Shown: one piece after another, positions 13,209 to 62,110 of the stretch
Layout: every line of letters starts with the position of its first letter
Numbering within the stretch: position 1 is the stretch's first letter
NCBI RefSeq assembly: GCF_037976825.1
Contig: NZ_CP150269.1
Coordinates: forward strand, 1,407,501-1,471,500
Direction of reading: 5' to 3'
DNA from: Paenibacillus sp. FSL K6-1330
GTDB taxonomy: Bacteria; Bacillota; Bacilli; Paenibacillales; Paenibacillaceae
Length of the DNA stretch: 64,000 bases
Translations under genes and position numbers: made by a program
The notes under the pieces: generated by a model
Seen by the model: only the letters and a program-made list of their open reading frames with translations
What the model was told of the DNA's origin: nothing
Databases searched by the model: none

Positions 13209-14084
13209 TTGAAGACATTTAAGAAAGTTTACATAGAAATTACGAGTATTTGTAATCTGGCCTGTACGTTCTGCCCACCGACAGAGCGTAAGGCCAACTT
13301 CATTAAGGTCGAAGACTTTGCGAGAAGATTGGACGAGATCAAGCCGCATACGAGTTACATTTATTTGCATGTGAAGGGGGAGCCGCTGCTCCATCCGAAG
13401 ATCGATGAGCTGCTGGATATTAGCCATGAAAAAGGGTTCAAGGTCAACATTACGACCAACGGCACGTTGATCGCGAAGAACCGGCATAAGCTGCTGGGCA
13501 AGCCGGCCTTAAGACAGATGAACTTCTCACTCCACAGCTTCGACGGTCACGAGGGTTCAACAAATCGCGAGGGATATTTACGGGAAATCCTATCCTTTGT
13601 TCGTGCCGCGGAGGAGCATAAAGTCATCTTTTCGTTCCGATTGTGGAATCTGACGCAGGACAACCAAACAAACCTGGAGAAGAGCCGCAACCGCCAGACG
13701 CTCGAAATTTTGGAGCAGGAATTTAATCTGGATTACCGAATCGAGGAAAAGGTTGAACCCGGCGGTGGTGTGAAGGTGGCCGACCGTGTTTATCTGAACC
13801 AGGATTATGAGTTCCAGTGGCCAAGTCTAACAGCCCCGGAGGATGAAGGCAAAGGCTTCTGCCATGCGCTTCGCAGCCAGGCGGCCATTCTCGTAGACGG
13901 GACAGTCGTGCCGTGCTGTCTGGATGGGGAAGGGGTCATCAATTTGGGCAATATTCATCAGAAGTCCTTCTCGGACATCGTTGACGGGGAGCGGGCGAAT
14001 AACCTCGTAGAGGGATTTTCGCGCCGGGAAGCCGTTGAGGAGCTATGCAGAAAATGCGGGTATCGGCAGCGGTTTGGGGCATAA
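13209..14084 (+). CDS. Radical SAM protein with C-terminal SPASM-like cysteines
   Basis: 291 residues, TTG start. The CX3CX2C motif (SICNLACTFC, Cys17/21/24) binds the SAM-cleaving 4Fe-4S cluster; HVKGEPLLHP is the GGE-like SAM-contact motif. C-terminal cysteines (VVPCCLDG, later CRKCGY) look like a SPASM/twitch auxiliary-cluster domain. Such proteins modify peptides or small molecules by radical chemistry. No precursor peptide gene is obvious within 200 bases on either side. An extended -10 (TGGTACGAT, 13128-13136) precedes it. The gene is monocistronic, ended by a hairpin. Substrate unknown. Confidence 0.88.
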   Translation: MKTFKKVYIEITSICNLACTFCPPTERKANFIKVEDFARRLDEIKPHTSYIYLHVKGEPLLHPKIDELLDISHEKGFKVNITTNGTLIAKNRHKLLGKPALRQMNFSLHSFDGHEGSTNREGYLREILSFVRAAEEHKVIFSFRLWNLTQDNQTNLEKSRNRQTLEILEQEFNLDYRIEEKVEPGGGVKVADRVYLNQDYEFQWPSLTAPEDEGKGFCHALRSQAAILVDGTVVPCCLDGEGVINLGNIHQKSFSDIVDGERANNLVEGFSRREAVEELCRKCGYRQRFGA

Positions 14085-22153: not shown

Positions 22154-22300
22154 GATTTCGAGCAGCAGGTCTCAGAGCAAGTCCTTAAGAGAGCCGGTCA
22201 TTTCTATATTCCAGTCACGGATAAGAGGCAGGAGACCGTATGGTTTATCCTGCTTTTTCATCTGGAAACCAGCAGACATGGAAATCCGGTCTCATGGCAG
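22154..22300 (+). pseudogene. Short protein-coding remnant
   Basis: An open frame without a start codon reads like ordinary protein for about 48 residues (FEQQVSEQVLKRAG, then FYIPVTDKRQETVWFILLF and ETSRHGNPVSW) and then runs into the resolvase fragment on the other strand. A stop (22151) precedes it. It looks like the interrupted tail of a gene whose family I cannot name. Confidence 0.35.
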
Positions 22301-22513
22301 ACTATAAAAACTAATCCCTTTTTCATTCAGATCATTAACAACACTTATAAGTTCCTGCATGTTTCTTCCAAGTCGATCTAATCGCCAAACAACGATTGTG
22401 TCTCCGCTTCGAACAAAATCTAATGCCTCAGTTAATCCGTCCCTTTTCTTTTTAACTCCACTCACTTTATCTACAAAAATTCTCTCACAACCAAAGGTCA
22501 TATAAAAAAACAA
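22292..22513 (-). pseudogene. Serine resolvase/invertase fragment
   Basis: About 60 residues match the middle of the resolvase catalytic domain: GCERIFVDKVSGVKKKR, ALDFVRSGDTIVVWRLDRLGRN and MQELISVVNDLNEKGISF. The N-terminal part with the nucleophilic Ser and the whole C-terminal DNA-binding domain are gone; homology begins abruptly at GCERI and stops after FYSL. It is the scar of a Tn3-family-like element or of an invertase cassette. Confidence 0.85.
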
Positions 22514-25214: not shown

Positions 25215-25478
25215 ATGGAAGTCTACCGCTGCATGAACCATCCCGAGATGGAGGCCGTCGCTCAGTGCACGCGCTGCGGAAAGCCGGTATGCGAGGAATG
25301 CCATAATCCGGAGACAGGCCGCTGCCGCTATCGCTGCGGTGAGATGAACCCCGCTCCCGGCATGCCGGGACGGCCTAGGAACGTATGGGTGACCGTAATC
25401 GTCTCCATACTGGCTATCTTGGGCGGTCTTGCGCTGCTGCTGCTGACGATCTGCGGAGCCATACTGTTTTCTTATTAA
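25215..25478 (+). CDS. B-box-like zinc-finger membrane protein
   Basis: 87 residues. N-terminal zinc site: CMNHPEMEAVAQCTRCGKPVCEECH, followed by further Cys (GRCRYRC), the bacterial B-box pattern. After a Pro/Gly linker comes one transmembrane helix (VTVIVSILAILGGLALLLLTI). The finger probably faces the cytoplasm. AGTGAGGTGATTGG precedes the ATG. It is 65 bases upstream of the Lgt-like gene on the same strand and in equally GC-rich DNA, so all three genes to 27.8 kb may form one unit. Confidence 0.75.
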   Translation: MEVYRCMNHPEMEAVAQCTRCGKPVCEECHNPETGRCRYRCGEMNPAPGMPGRPRNVWVTVIVSILAILGGLALLLLTICGAILFSY

Positions 25479-25543
25479 CGCACGTGTTCCTAGTTCCGAC
25501 AAGCGCAATTTTCAAATCAGTTATTATTTCAAGGAGTGGACAG

Positions 25544-26332
25544 ATGGAGTTTCCTGTTTATTTGTACCTGGGTTCCTGGCGGATTCATCCACATGTGTTG
25601 TTTGAATCGCTGGCTTACTTTATCGGCTTCCGCGTGTATTTATGGACCCGCAGGCCGAGCGGCATGACCAAGCTGATGAGCCTGCAGATTCTGGCTGGAA
25701 TCATCGCCGGCGCGGCCATTGGCTCCAAGCTGCTATTTTGGCTGGAGGATCCGGCTGCCACTTGGGAACAGCTGCGCCAATTCCACCTGCTATGGGGAGG
25801 CAAGACGATTGTCGGCGGTCTTCTGGGCGGTTTGATCGGCGTCGAGTTGACAAAGCGCTTGGTGGGATGGAAGCATTCCACGGGCGACGATTTTGTTTAC
25901 CCGCTGATGCTGGGCCTGGGACTCGGACGGATCGGCTGTTTTCTGACCGGCCTGGATGACCATACCTATGGCACGCCGACGACCTGGTTCACAGGCGTGG
26001 ATTTTGGCGACGGGGTTTATCGCCATCCGACTCAGCTGTATGAGATCCTGTTCCTGATCGTGCTGGCCTTGCTGCTGCTTCCGCTGTACCGCCAAAGTCG
26101 CGGCAGATCTACTCGCGAGGGCTACGTGTCCGGGCGGATGTTTCAATGGTTTATGGCCGGGTACCTGCTGTTCCGCCTGGTGATCGACTGGATCAAACCG
26201 ACGCCGCATCCTTACCTGGGACTGAACAATATCCAATTAGCCTGCATCGCGGGCCTCATCTATTATGCATGGCTGATCGGCGGCAGAAACCGGCTTCGCC
26301 GCTTCATGCCGGGTTCCCATCTTCCAAGCTGA
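25544..26332 (+). CDS. Divergent prolipoprotein diacylglyceryl transferase (Lgt)-like membrane protein
   Basis: 262 residues from ATG 25544, seven bases after AAGGAG. About seven transmembrane helices in the Lgt pattern. The family's RHPTQLYE segment and a G-R-I-G turn (LGLGRIG) are present. Key residues differ: where Lgt has the HGG active-site histidine the text is GGKTIVGGLLGG, and the GN-F-x-N-x-E stretch is GCFLTGLDD. True Lgt moves diacylglycerol from phosphatidylglycerol to lipoprotein Cys; with those changes this protein may use another acceptor or only bind lipid. It is followed after 17 bases by a radical SAM gene of the tetraether-synthase type. Confidence 0.75.
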   Translation: MEFPVYLYLGSWRIHPHVLFESLAYFIGFRVYLWTRRPSGMTKLMSLQILAGIIAGAAIGSKLLFWLEDPAATWEQLRQFHLLWGGKTIVGGLLGGLIGVELTKRLVGWKHSTGDDFVYPLMLGLGLGRIGCFLTGLDDHTYGTPTTWFTGVDFGDGVYRHPTQLYEILFLIVLALLLLPLYRQSRGRSTREGYVSGRMFQWFMAGYLLFRLVIDWIKPTPHPYLGLNNIQLACIAGLIYYAWLIGGRNRLRRFMPGSHLPS

Positions 26333-26349
26333 CCAAAGGAGTCTTGATT

Positions 26350-27765
26350 ATGCCAAAAAACCGGCCTTATCTGTATCATGAACTGACGAATAGCATATGC
26401 ACGACTTGTTACCGCAAAGTGGAAGCCAAGATCATCGAGGAGAACGGCATGATCTATATGCTCAAAAGATGCCTCGTTCACGGTCCGGAAAAAGTGCTGA
26501 TCGCCACAGAGGCCGATTATTACCATCAGACGCGAAAGTTTATCAAGCCGTCCGAAATGCCGCTTGTCTGGAATACGCCGATCCGTTACGGCTGTCCTTA
26601 TGACTGCGGGCTCTGTCCGGACCATGAGCAGCACAGCTGCCTCACGCTGCTGGAGATCACGGACCACTGCAATCTGCAGTGCCCGATCTGCTTCGCGGAG
26701 TCGTCGCCGCATCGTACCTCGTACCGGTCGCTAACGCAGATCGAATTCATGCTCGACCGGATCGTGGAGAACGAGGGGGAGCCTGACATCGTGCAGATCA
26801 GCGGTGGCGAGCCGACGACGCATCCGGATTTCTTTGACATCCTGGACATGTGCAAGAGCCGTCCGATCAAGCATATTATGGTGAACACAAACGGCATCCG
26901 CATTGCCCAGGACCGCGATTTTGCGCGGAGGCTGGCCGAGTACATGCCAGGATTCGAAATTTACCTGCAATTCGACAGCTTTGAGGCGCATGTGCTGAAG
27001 GAGCTGAGAGGGGCCGATCTTCGGCGCATCCGCCAGCAAGCCATCGACCATCTGAATGAATTCAATATCTCCACGACACTGGTCGTCACGCTGAAGAAAG
27101 GCCTCAATGACGGCGAAATCGGAGATATCATTCAGTATGGGCTTCAGCAAAAAGCGGTGCGCGGCGTCACCATTCAGCCGATTCAGGCTGCGGGCCGGCT
27201 GGAGGGGTATGATCCGGCAACCGACCGGCTGACCGTGAGCGAAGTGCGGCGGATGATCATCGACCAGTCCGAGGTATTTACGGATGCGGACATTCTGCCG
27301 GTTCCTTGCCACCCGGATTGCCTGGCCATGGGCTACGCCTTGAAGCTGGGCGGGGAAGTGCTGCCGTTGACACGGATGATCGACCCGGAAATCCTGCTCG
27401 AGGGCGACAGCAACACGATTGTGTTTGAGCAGGATCCGGTGATCCGAGGCAAAATGTTTGAGCTGCTGTCGACCGGCCATTCGCCGCAATCCTCCGCGCT
27501 TTCCCTGAAGAGCCTGCTCTGCTGTCTGCCGCTAGCCGCCGTGCCGGAGCAGATTACCTATGACAACGTCTTCCGGGTCATTATCATGCAGTTCCTGGAC
27601 GCCCATAACTTCGACGTCCGTTCCGTCAAGAAATCCTGCGTCCACATCATGCATCCCGACGGACGAATGATCCCGTTTGACACCTACAACATGTTCTACC
27701 GAGACGACAAGGAAGAGCTGCTGAAGGAGCTGAAGGAAGAGGTCGTCACGGCTTGGGACCGGTAG
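26350..27765 (+). CDS. Radical SAM enzyme of the MJ0619/tetraether-synthase (Tes)-like family
   Basis: 471 residues from ATG 26350 (AAAGGAG upstream). An N-terminal zinc/rubredoxin-like segment, SICTTCYRKVEAKIIEENG and KRCLVHG, is typical of the MJ0619 group. CGLCPDHEQHSC follows, then the radical SAM motif CNLQCPICF (CX3CX2C), ISGGEPTTHP as SAM site, and late cysteines (VPCHPDC, LLCCLP). Members of the family include archaeal Tes, which joins two lipid tails by C-C bonds, and bacterial relatives linked to membrane-spanning lipids; others methylate cofactors. Adjacency to an Lgt-like membrane protein favours a lipid substrate here. That is inference from context; the family assignment itself is good. 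Confidence 0.82.
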   Translation: MPKNRPYLYHELTNSICTTCYRKVEAKIIEENGMIYMLKRCLVHGPEKVLIATEADYYHQTRKFIKPSEMPLVWNTPIRYGCPYDCGLCPDHEQHSCLTLLEITDHCNLQCPICFAESSPHRTSYRSLTQIEFMLDRIVENEGEPDIVQISGGEPTTHPDFFDILDMCKSRPIKHIMVNTNGIRIAQDRDFARRLAEYMPGFEIYLQFDSFEAHVLKELRGADLRRIRQQAIDHLNEFNISTTLVVTLKKGLNDGEIGDIIQYGLQQKAVRGVTIQPIQAAGRLEGYDPATDRLTVSEVRRMIIDQSEVFTDADILPVPCHPDCLAMGYALKLGGEVLPLTRMIDPEILLEGDSNTIVFEQDPVIRGKMFELLSTGHSPQSSALSLKSLLCCLPLAAVPEQITYDNVFRVIIMQFLDAHNFDVRSVKKSCVHIMHPDGRMIPFDTYNMFYRDDKEELLKELKEEVVTAWDR

Positions 27766-46820: not shown

Positions 46821-47023
46821 TAGATCATCAGTAGCCAAGACCAGCAAGTAGCACCAAGATCAGCAGTAGCACCAATACCAGTAGTAGAACCGAGCCAGCA
46901 GCAGCACCAATACCAGCAGTAACACCAAGATCAGTAGTAGCCAAGACCAGCAAGTAGCACCAAGCCAGCAGGTAGCAACAAGATCAATAGTAGCACTTAG
47001 ACCAGCAGTAGCGATAAGACCAC
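46801..47023. repeat. Imperfect minisatellite between the two palindromic repeats
   Basis: A degenerate tandem array of about 18 bases (AGTAGCACCAAGACCAGC), some dozen copies of 15-21 bases with substitutions. A shorter stretch of the same text follows copy B (47217-47280). No long open frame is preserved. Confidence 0.8.
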
Positions 47024-59956: not shown

Positions 59957-62110
59957 ATGAAAAAAATTACAGGATTAAGTATTTTTATTCTATTATTTGT
60001 ATTATTAGATACTTATGCCTATGGGGAATCCGTAAAAGAAATGCAGGGTAATTCATTCCCAAGCGGGACTATCGCAACAGCTAGCAGCGTAGCGGATTCG
60101 TATATTCCCGCAAATGTAATCGATAAAGATTTAAAAACAAGATGGAACGCAACAACATACCAAGCAACGCTGCAACTTGATTTCCCAACGGAGTTGAATA
60201 TTTCTGCAGTGCAACTAGCAGCAGTTGCCACTCCCACAACGGATGAGGAGTACACGGTCTTTGGATTCAAAAATGGATTATGGACACAAATAAGTGAGCC
60301 TACGATAAGAAATGTTCTTGCTTCAGCCGAAAGTACACCTGTTGTACTGGAGTCTATTCCAGTTAATCCAGGCAACTACGATGCGATTAAAATAAATATT
60401 GATGGTCGTAATTCATGGGTAGCCATAAATGAAATAACATATATAAATCAGTCATTAAATGCCCCGCATCTTGAAAAGATAGTAGATGGACCGATTTCTT
60501 TATATTGGAACTCGGTTCCGGGAGCGACTCATTACGAAGTGAAACGATCCGAGACACCTGGGGGTCCTTATACAACTATTGCTACTGTTCAGGAAAGACC
60601 TTGGTTAGGGTATCTAGATGAAGAGACGTACAATGATGAGAATCATTATAAGGATTATTATTATGTCGTAACGGCATTGAACGGATCGGAAACGAGCCCG
60701 AACTCAAATGAGGTATCCTTAATCCGGCCGAGCACGCCTATAAATGTTCAAGCAGTACCAGGGGACAAAGAAGCAATGGTTACGTGGGATAAAGTGGATA
60801 ATGCAACCAATTATGAAGTGAATGTTGCGACTTCGGAAGAGGGCCCCTATCAGTATGTTGGATCCGCAATTGATAATAACAAAACAGTGACCAAATTAGT
60901 AAACGGAACGAAATATTATATTCGGGTGGTTGCGAGGAATGAAGATGGGTACAGCAGGTCTTCGTCACCAGTTTCAGTTATACCGGGTATAAATCAGTCA
61001 TTAAATGCCCCGCATCTTGAAAAGATAGTAGATGGACCGATTTCTTTATATTGGAACTCGGTTCCGGGAGCGACTCATTACGAAGTGAAACGATCCGAGA
61101 CACCTGGGGGTCCTTATACAACTATTGCTACTGTTCAGGAAAGACCTTGGTTAGGGTATCTAGATGAAGAGACGTACAATGATGAGAATCATTATAAGGA
61201 TTATTATTATGTCGTAACGGCATTGAACGGATCGGAAACGAGCCCGAACTCAAATGAGGTATCCTTAATCCGGCCGAGCACGCCTATAAATGTTCAAGCA
61301 GTACCAGGGGACAAAGAAGCAATGGTTACGTGGGATAAAGTGGATAATGCAACCAATTATGAAGTGAATGTTGCGACTTCGGAAGAGGGCCCCTATCAGT
61401 ATGTTGGATCCGCAATTGATAATAACAAAACAGTGACCAAATTAGTAAACGGAACGAAATATTACATTCGGGTGGTTGCGAGGAATGAAGATGGGTACAG
61501 CAGGTCTTCGTCACCAGTTTCAGTTATACCGGGTATAAATCAGTCATTAAATGCCCCGCATCTTGAAAAGATAGTAGATGGACCGATTTCTTTATATTGG
61601 AACTCGGTTCCGGGAGCGACTCATTACGAAGTGAAACGATCCGAGACACCTGGGGGTCCTTATACAACTATTGCTACTGTTCAGGAAAGACCTTGGTTAG
61701 GGTATCTAGATGAAGAGACGTACAATGATGAGAATCATTATAAGGATTATTATTATGTCGTAACGGCATTGAACGGATCGGAAACGAGCCCGAACTCAAA
61801 TGAGGTATCCTTAATCCGGCCGAGCACGCCTATAAATGTTCAAGCAGTACCAGGGGACAAAGAAGCAATGGTTACGTGGGATAAAGTGGATAATGCAACC
61901 AATTATGAAGTGAATGTTGCGACTTCGGAAGAGGGCCCCTATCAGTATGTTGGATCCGCAATTGATAATAACAAAACAGTGACCAAATTAGTAAACGGAA
62001 CGAAATATTACATTCGGGTGGTTGCGAGGAATGAAGATGGATACAGCAGGTCTTCGTCACCAGTTTCAATTATACCGGGTATACAAGAAACAGATAGCAA
62101 CAATAACTAG
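59957..62110 (+). CDS. Secreted fibronectin type III repeat protein
   Basis: 717 residues. Signal peptide KKITGLSIFILLFVLLDTYAYG. Residues about 35-160 look like a discoidin/F5-8C-type carbohydrate-binding sandwich (ATASSVADSYIPANVIDKD, TRWNATTYQATLQLDF). Three identical 182-residue units follow, each of two FN3 domains (GPISLYWNSVPGATHYEVKR and AMVTWDKVDNATNYEVNV cores), six in all. No catalytic domain, LPXTG or S-layer anchor is seen, so it is probably released or bound to a polysaccharide. AAGGAGATG precedes the start. Rather AT-rich with recent internal amplification. Confidence 0.88.
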   Translation: MKKITGLSIFILLFVLLDTYAYGESVKEMQGNSFPSGTIATASSVADSYIPANVIDKDLKTRWNATTYQATLQLDFPTELNISAVQLAAVATPTTDEEYTVFGFKNGLWTQISEPTIRNVLASAESTPVVLESIPVNPGNYDAIKINIDGRNSWVAINEITYINQSLNAPHLEKIVDGPISLYWNSVPGATHYEVKRSETPGGPYTTIATVQERPWLGYLDEETYNDENHYKDYYYVVTALNGSETSPNSNEVSLIRPSTPINVQAVPGDKEAMVTWDKVDNATNYEVNVATSEEGPYQYVGSAIDNNKTVTKLVNGTKYYIRVVARNEDGYSRSSSPVSVIPGINQSLNAPHLEKIVDGPISLYWNSVPGATHYEVKRSETPGGPYTTIATVQERPWLGYLDEETYNDENHYKDYYYVVTALNGSETSPNSNEVSLIRPSTPINVQAVPGDKEAMVTWDKVDNATNYEVNVATSEEGPYQYVGSAIDNNKTVTKLVNGTKYYIRVVARNEDGYSRSSSPVSVIPGINQSLNAPHLEKIVDGPISLYWNSVPGATHYEVKRSETPGGPYTTIATVQERPWLGYLDEETYNDENHYKDYYYVVTALNGSETSPNSNEVSLIRPSTPINVQAVPGDKEAMVTWDKVDNATNYEVNVATSEEGPYQYVGSAIDNNKTVTKLVNGTKYYIRVVARNEDGYSRSSSPVSIIPGIQETDSNNN
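60446..62083 (+). repeat. Three near-identical 546-bp tandem repeats
   Basis: Units 60446-60991, 60992-61537 and 61538-62083. I find only three base differences: one T/C between unit 1 and the others, and two changes close to the end of unit 3. Frame is maintained, so copy number can change without breaking the gene. Confidence 0.96.

Follow-up and report, generated by a model that had tools for sequence, protein, structure and literature searches.

The window analysed here is a 64,000-nucleotide stretch of Paenibacillus sp. FSL K6-1330 (NZ_CP150269.1, positions 1,407,501 to 1,471,500), from a genome of 7.43 Mb. At its positions 25,215 to 27,765 lie three genes on the + strand, which encode a small zinc-finger/transmembrane (TM) protein, a membrane protein with the fold of Lgt, and a radical S-adenosylmethionine (SAM) protein of the Tes/TrsS superfamily. 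They form a three-gene module of soil bacteria and cyanobacteria that is apparently undescribed; no description of it was found in the open-licence literature searched. A preliminary description, made from the letters of the sequence, had placed the three genes at these positions, and the open reading frame (ORF) coordinates agree, including the 17 bases between the Lgt-like and radical SAM genes. The small zinc-finger membrane protein that it had seen ahead of the pair was likewise recovered, at 25215-25478 (+) with one C-terminal hydrophobic helix. The features are as follows.

25215-25478, +: zinc-finger/TM protein, 87 aa; B-box-like zinc finger, then one C-terminal hydrophobic helix
25452-25454, +: codon of Cys80 of the zinc-finger protein, in the C-terminal helix, 7 residues before the end
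25531-25536, +: AAGGAG resembling a ribosome-binding site ahead of the Lgt-like gene, read from the sequence
25544-26332, +: Lgt-like integral membrane protein, Lgt fold, 262 aa
26335-26341, +: AAAGGAG resembling a ribosome-binding site ahead of the radical SAM gene, read from the sequence
26350-27765, +: radical SAM protein, Tes/TrsS superfamily, 471 aa; rubredoxin-type, N-terminal auxiliary cluster and radical SAM cluster motifs; Tes-like C-terminal region

Conservation of the pair and its third component

Orthologues of the radical SAM protein (at least 70% identity) were found in 19 of 60 related genomes (own included), and the Lgt-like gene was present in the same 19. The two genes were immediate neighbours in 18 of these; in G024 the distance was 3.9 kb, with the radical SAM gene truncated by a contig end. 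A survey of 200 Bacilli genomes gave one and the same set of 14 (own included) for the two genes, side by side in each. Both were found in two of 249 genomes of the phylum (own included), with three more carrying, by the queries used, distant superfamily members only. The surveyed genomes are related, so these co-occurrence counts are not independent. Named genomes were scanned with the Lgt-like alignment, and the best 80 of 512 stretches encoding a relative were kept. The radical SAM gene was on the same locus in 78 of the 80, within 140 bases of the Lgt-like match in 72 and at most 3.2 kb away. With the same presence sets for both genes in two surveys, this bears out the conserved adjacency that the preliminary description had proposed to look for. 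The 80 loci came from Paenibacillus, Saccharibacillus, Tumebacillus, Brevibacillus, Neobacillus and other Bacilli, and included ten cyanobacterial genomes and one acidobacterial metagenome-assembled genome. At two cyanobacterial loci (L095 and L097) the radical SAM gene was not near the Lgt-like gene and was present elsewhere in the genome; it was found in 11 of the 11 cyanobacterial and acidobacterial genomes searched. Besides the module, no family recurred in more than 18 of the 80 loci. In Neobacillus pocheonensis (L052, 7001-9151) the two genes are one open frame of 716 codons, with no stop ahead of the radical SAM start; a natural fusion or the loss of a stop could explain this single case.

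The zinc-finger/TM protein (zf-B_box 23.6 bits, just under the cut-off of 24.1; 27.0 bits for the L005 orthologue) was encoded upstream of the Lgt-like gene in 17 of the 80 loci. ORF clustering gave a family of small membrane proteins in 45 loci, mostly directly 3' of the radical SAM gene. A profile of this small-TM family, with 43 seeds drawn from the same 80 loci, found it in 58 of the 80 at E <= 0.01 (L045 and L074 weakly), and the zinc-finger protein was in none of these 58. In the genomes of L095 and L097, the small-TM gene adjoined the radical SAM gene. At L098 and L104, post hoc inspection by eye picked out other small membrane proteins next to the pair, each with a hydrophobic helix, a basic stretch and a Cys.

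Each small family has an invariant Cys, Cys80 in the 18 aligned zinc-finger rows (the window protein and 17 relatives) and the small-TM Cys in 43 of 43 seeds. In the 120 small-TM relatives listed, out of 194 in the database, the Cys lay no more than 16 residues from the C-terminus (120/120). In all 120, the residues ahead of the helix are net positively charged and the Cys follows Ala, Gly, Ser or Thr, with position -3 mostly Asn or Phe; the 120 include some seeds, and the profile itself favours Cys. The Cys-bearing helix of the small partners is C-terminal and is not a signal peptide. Because of the positive charge before the helix, the Cys is predicted to face outward, as the lipobox Cys of a lipoprotein does. 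The zinc-finger protein is the probable lineage-specific stand-in for the small Cys-bearing membrane protein of most other loci. The preliminary description had correctly put the zinc-finger protein ahead of the pair but missed this role as third component. A quickly built tree, whose outgroup branches are very long, was used solely to show that the zinc-finger-bearing rows cluster (2 changes versus a shuffled mean of 7.0). That the zinc-finger protein descends directly from the small-TM protein found no support (hhalign probability 12.9%), although the Cys registers align. No small-TM remnant was seen in the window, where the best match had E 0.17 and, at the module, only the zinc-finger frame matched, with E 4.

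Residues and relatives of the two enzyme-like proteins

The Lgt-like protein has the LGT domain and fold (PF01790, 82.8 bits, cut-off 24.9), and the hallmarks RHPTQLYE and GRIG that had been read from its 262 residues are both present. Unlike Lgt, it scored below the curated cut-off of every Lgt model matched: NF000778 (54.3 vs 334 bits), TIGR00544 (44.5 vs 118.9), NF000784 (23.6 vs 409) and NF000775 (16.5 vs 428). Residues were counted in an alignment of 79 members with E. coli Lgt (5azb) numbering. An extract of PMC13251419 gives Y26, H103, R143, N146, G154 and R239 as residues required in E. coli Lgt. Three of the six (R143, G154 and R239) are retained in 79/79 members and three are replaced: Y26 by His (79/79), N146 by Cys (79/79), and H103 by Val in 76, Ile in 2 and Ala in 1. 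R246 is Lys in 79/79; in the Lgt lipid site, R143, E202, Y235 and R239 do not vary. The profile search with residue-level alignment that had been suggested as a check thus matched PF01790 with the required residues only partly kept.

The preliminary description had stressed Val in place of a catalytic His, together with the loss of a conserved stretch. Both changes are real, in that V90 of the window protein aligns with H103 and that N146, N149 and E151 are all changed; the emphasis on Val was misleading. The window genome's housekeeping Lgt has Phe at the H103 position, and in Firmicutes Lgt that His is replaced by Tyr (PMC13251419, in extract), so Val is a weaker sign than first thought and was rejected as the key one. 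H103 varies in other groups as well, and alone is no fair criterion for Lgt function. Y26H and N146C, each in 79/79, are the stronger signs. The same two changes occur in MSMEG_5408, the second Lgt homologue of Mycobacterium smegmatis, for which low Lgt activity is presumed (both from passages of PMC13251419). The housekeeping-type lgt lies between hprK-like and HAD phosphatase genes, so the Lgt-like protein is not the only Lgt of the genome, a possibility the preliminary description had raised against its own proposal. A third LGT-family gene of the genome (L113, 3028-3804) comes after a BlaI/BlaR1-like regulator pair; its residues at the H103 and N146 positions are Tyr and Cys, respectively.

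The radical SAM protein matched Radical_SAM (80.6 bits, cut-off 29.5) and Zn_ribbon_HMPTM (57.5 bits, cut-off 27). In an alignment of 36 rows, C17, C20, C41 and H44, C82, C86, C89 and H92, and C107, C111 and C114 were identical in 36/36; the preliminary description had read MJ0619/Tes N-terminal and cluster motifs here. The ligand sets of Tes, as listed in part of PMC9433317, are kept: the rubredoxin site CX2C..CX2H, the N-terminal cluster with three Cys and a His, and the radical SAM cluster CX3CX2C. H92 would be the His ligand of the N-terminal cluster. The predicted structure matched Tes along nearly the whole chain by VIA-align, a comparison that leaves room for folds outside its list. With this match, placement in a cofactor-methylating clade, which would have told against the earlier proposal, found no support.

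Neither curated model was passed. The Tes model NF045702 gave 279.9 bits (cut-off 450), and the TrsS model NF045646, the best curated model and aligned over nearly the full length, gave 322.6 bits (cut-off 490; three relatives, 320.5-326.8). Met439 and Tyr459 are completely conserved in archaeal Tes homologues, M439A stays active, and Tyr459 is non-essential (all in extracts of PMC9433317). The Met439 equivalent was Met in 31/36 rows and Val in 5/36, and where Tes has Tyr459 the window-type protein has Ile (36/36); since neither residue is needed for activity, these changes bear on family and not on activity. Between the two C-terminal motifs there are 96 residues in the window type, versus 108 in Tes and 90 in TrsS.

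Gene sets also separate the window module from Tes and TrsS. It differs from Tes / GDGT-MAS (7tol, 7tom) by its constant Lgt-like and small-protein partners. For a true TrsS (L111, 700 bits), profile search of the 12 kb locus gave no LGT gene, and this TrsS, unlike the window module, stands beside a DVU_1553-family ligase; TrsS appears as a table row in an extract of a selenoproteome review (PMC13188914). From passages of PMC13274423, Mss is the described tail-coupling enzyme of Bacillota, present in many of them, modelled with the catalytic architecture of Tes and searched for together with Ger. Mss offers an enzymatic route to joined lipid tails. In contrast to this pairing of Mss with Ger, a profile search of the window genome gave no PF09989 match. 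We take PF09989 to be a mark of PlsA/Ger. Alkyl ethers by the PlsA/Ger route are therefore unlikely in the window strain.

A proposed lipid-modifying module and its alternatives

The constant linkage of an Lgt fold, a Tes fold and a small Cys-bearing protein leads us to propose a lipid-modifying module with a Cys acceptor. That the module acts on lipid at all we consider slightly better than an even bet. To the fuller reading, in which the three parts act together at the membrane to alter the chemistry of a lipid derived from phosphatidylglycerol (PG), we give a probability of about 0.4; its reaction is pieced together wholly from conserved gene sets, predicted folds and conserved residues. 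The Lgt-like protein would bind PG in the Lgt pocket, through the equivalents of R143, E202, Y235 and R239, and, as in Lgt, activate the bond to the PG glycerol. With the acceptor side altered (Y26H, H103V and N146C), ordinary lipoproteins would no longer be served. The likeliest acceptor would be the invariant Cys that the small partner carries in its last helix, close to the outer end; this partner is the zinc-finger/TM protein in the window and another small membrane protein elsewhere. A membrane-embedded protein would thereby gain a diacylglyceryl anchor through a thioether link. The Tes-fold radical SAM protein would take hydrogen from a lipid tail and form a new C-C (or C-S) bond on this anchor or on the PG donor.

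Several observations weigh against this proposal. Y26, H103 and N146, each required in E. coli Lgt, are replaced in 79/79 members, and diacylglyceryl transfer may have been lost. Of the seven residues lining the second PG site of E. coli Lgt (PMC4728403), four are kept; F102 is Ile/Val, Y259 is mostly Asn, and W256 aligns with a gap. Ile at F102 and Asn at Y259 are also seen in the window genome's housekeeping Lgt. TrsS is at least as close to Tes as the radical SAM enzyme is (36% and 32% identity to the 7tol chain, respectively), and the predicted model blocks for residues 341-400, near the presumed lipid pocket, have pLDDT (predicted local distance difference test) values of 38-64. A full lipobox is absent from both small families, and in the zinc-finger partners the Cys follows Ile or Leu and not a small residue. 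For homology between the two families, the hhalign probability was only the 12.9% given above, and no small partner was seen at the L088 locus.

The preliminary description had inferred a cassette for an unusual, cross-linked or membrane-spanning lipid or lipoprotein anchor. The cassette holds up, with adjacency conserved and a second Lgt in the genome; the spanning product does not fare as well, given the identity values and the two curated models failed. An explanation of that kind, a synthase in which the radical SAM protein couples two PG tail ends while the Lgt-like and small proteins present lipid without catalysis, is nevertheless the best of the rivals, though rather unlikely. It would accommodate the Tes fold and ligand motifs, the density in the Tes structure interpreted as two phosphatidic acids from E. 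coli (PMC9433317, in extract), and a protein that keeps four polar PG-site residues of Lgt while three essential ones are replaced. It sits poorly with the Tes model score, with Ile in place of Tyr459, and with an inter-motif stretch between those of Tes and TrsS in length, and it leaves the invariant Cys unexplained. The lack of PF09989 also counts against it, though ester-linked forms would need none.

Less likely again is a membrane sulfur or selenium chemistry, in which the radical SAM and Lgt-fold proteins mature or load the Cys of the small protein, for instance by cross-linking or with sulfur, and the substrate is something other than lipid. It was kept mainly because of the sulfur-related neighbours of distant cousins of the pair. 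In G244 (L109), a relative of 39-41% identity has an LGT-family gene at its 3' end, followed by ArsP permease, Se/S-carrier and sulfur-transport/ICMT fusion genes. In G566 (L145), a relative of 37% identity lies near an ICMT/PEMT methyltransferase, DUF4395, an LGT gene and a small protein ending LLLGTCSVLF, which matched the small-TM profile with E 1.1e-5. The best curated match over nearly the full length, to the (seleno)protein TrsS, and the invariant Cys agree with such chemistry as well. Beside the window-type pair, however, no other family recurs in more than 18 of the 80 loci, and the fixed R143, E202, Y235 and R239 are those of the Lgt lipid site. The relative in G557 had no LGT gene by profile in 16 kb, and among 30 loci from a 398-genome survey an LGT gene lay within flanks of about 1.5 kb in four (own, G163, G244 and G566); the LGT link thus extends past the window's subfamily but not to the whole superfamily. 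G244 also has two tandem, mutually divergent Tes/TrsS superfamily genes near a NifS-like cysteine desulfurase gene (L110, 5008-7817), with a third member about 35 kb away.

Cofactor methylation was rejected as the main explanation and is very improbable: some database relatives bear the name '7,8-dihydro-6-hydroxymethylpterin dimethyltransferase' and the HMPTM zinc-ribbon domain is present, but the Tes structure suggests that the pterin-methylase annotation is incorrect for Tes itself (PMC9433317, in extract), and the constant partners are membrane proteins, one with a lipid-transferase fold. That the genes are chance neighbours without joint function, as L095 and L097 might suggest, is disfavoured to the point of being barely credible, since the pair is common to distant phyla, its presence sets coincide in two surveys, 78 of the 80 closest loci have both genes, and a looser pair occurs in G244 and G566.

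Should the proposed lipid modification take place, its boldest form would be a new kind of lipoprotein in Bacilli and Cyanobacteria: a dedicated Lgt paralogue would transfer a diacylglyceryl group, without cleavage, to an outer Cys near the C-terminus of a membrane-embedded protein (a 'C-terminal lipobox'), and a Tes-fold radical SAM enzyme would join or re-functionalise the tails of this bound lipid, possibly giving a protein-anchored membrane-spanning lipid. We regard this as unlikely. If the small protein is indeed lipidated, the definition of a lipoprotein widens. Bacterial Tes homologues have been proposed, not proven, to make branched tetraethers (extracts of PMC8941075, PMC11868695 and PMC10087280); they were called at E < 1e-50 and identity over 20 or 30% (PMC8941075, in part) and counted in a Black Sea study (PMC11868695, in part). 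Such loose cut-offs would admit both the window protein (32%) and true TrsS (36%), despite their different gene sets; these identities refer to the 7tol chain and not to the query of PMC8941075. A Tes-fold, an Lgt-fold and a Cys-bearing protein in culturable Bacilli and Cyanobacteria make a tractable system for bacterial Tes-like function.

Surroundings of the module and other features of the window

The module is flanked by a PAF-acetylhydrolase-like gene upstream and a GDSL lipase-like gene downstream, and its proteins share 98-99% identity with their counterparts in Paenibacillus lautus NBRC 15380 (L025). Promoter and terminator scans gave counts near or below shuffled expectation, and no Rfam match reached gathering scores. 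A 73-aa ORF at 22292-22513 (-) resembles the start of a serine recombinase and is presumably a remnant. At 13209-14084 (+) lies another radical SAM gene, whose product has a SPASM domain; SPASM-type radical SAM enzymes often mature peptides. A tandem array of short period, with 18- and 53-nt units, occupies 46822-47012 (CCAAGACCAGCAGTAGCA). The 717-aa product of the gene at 59957-62110 (+) shows three fibronectin type III stretches besides an F5/8-type match. The gene contains three 100% identical 300-nt copies at 546 nt spacing, which are a very recent internal duplication or a concerted repeat.
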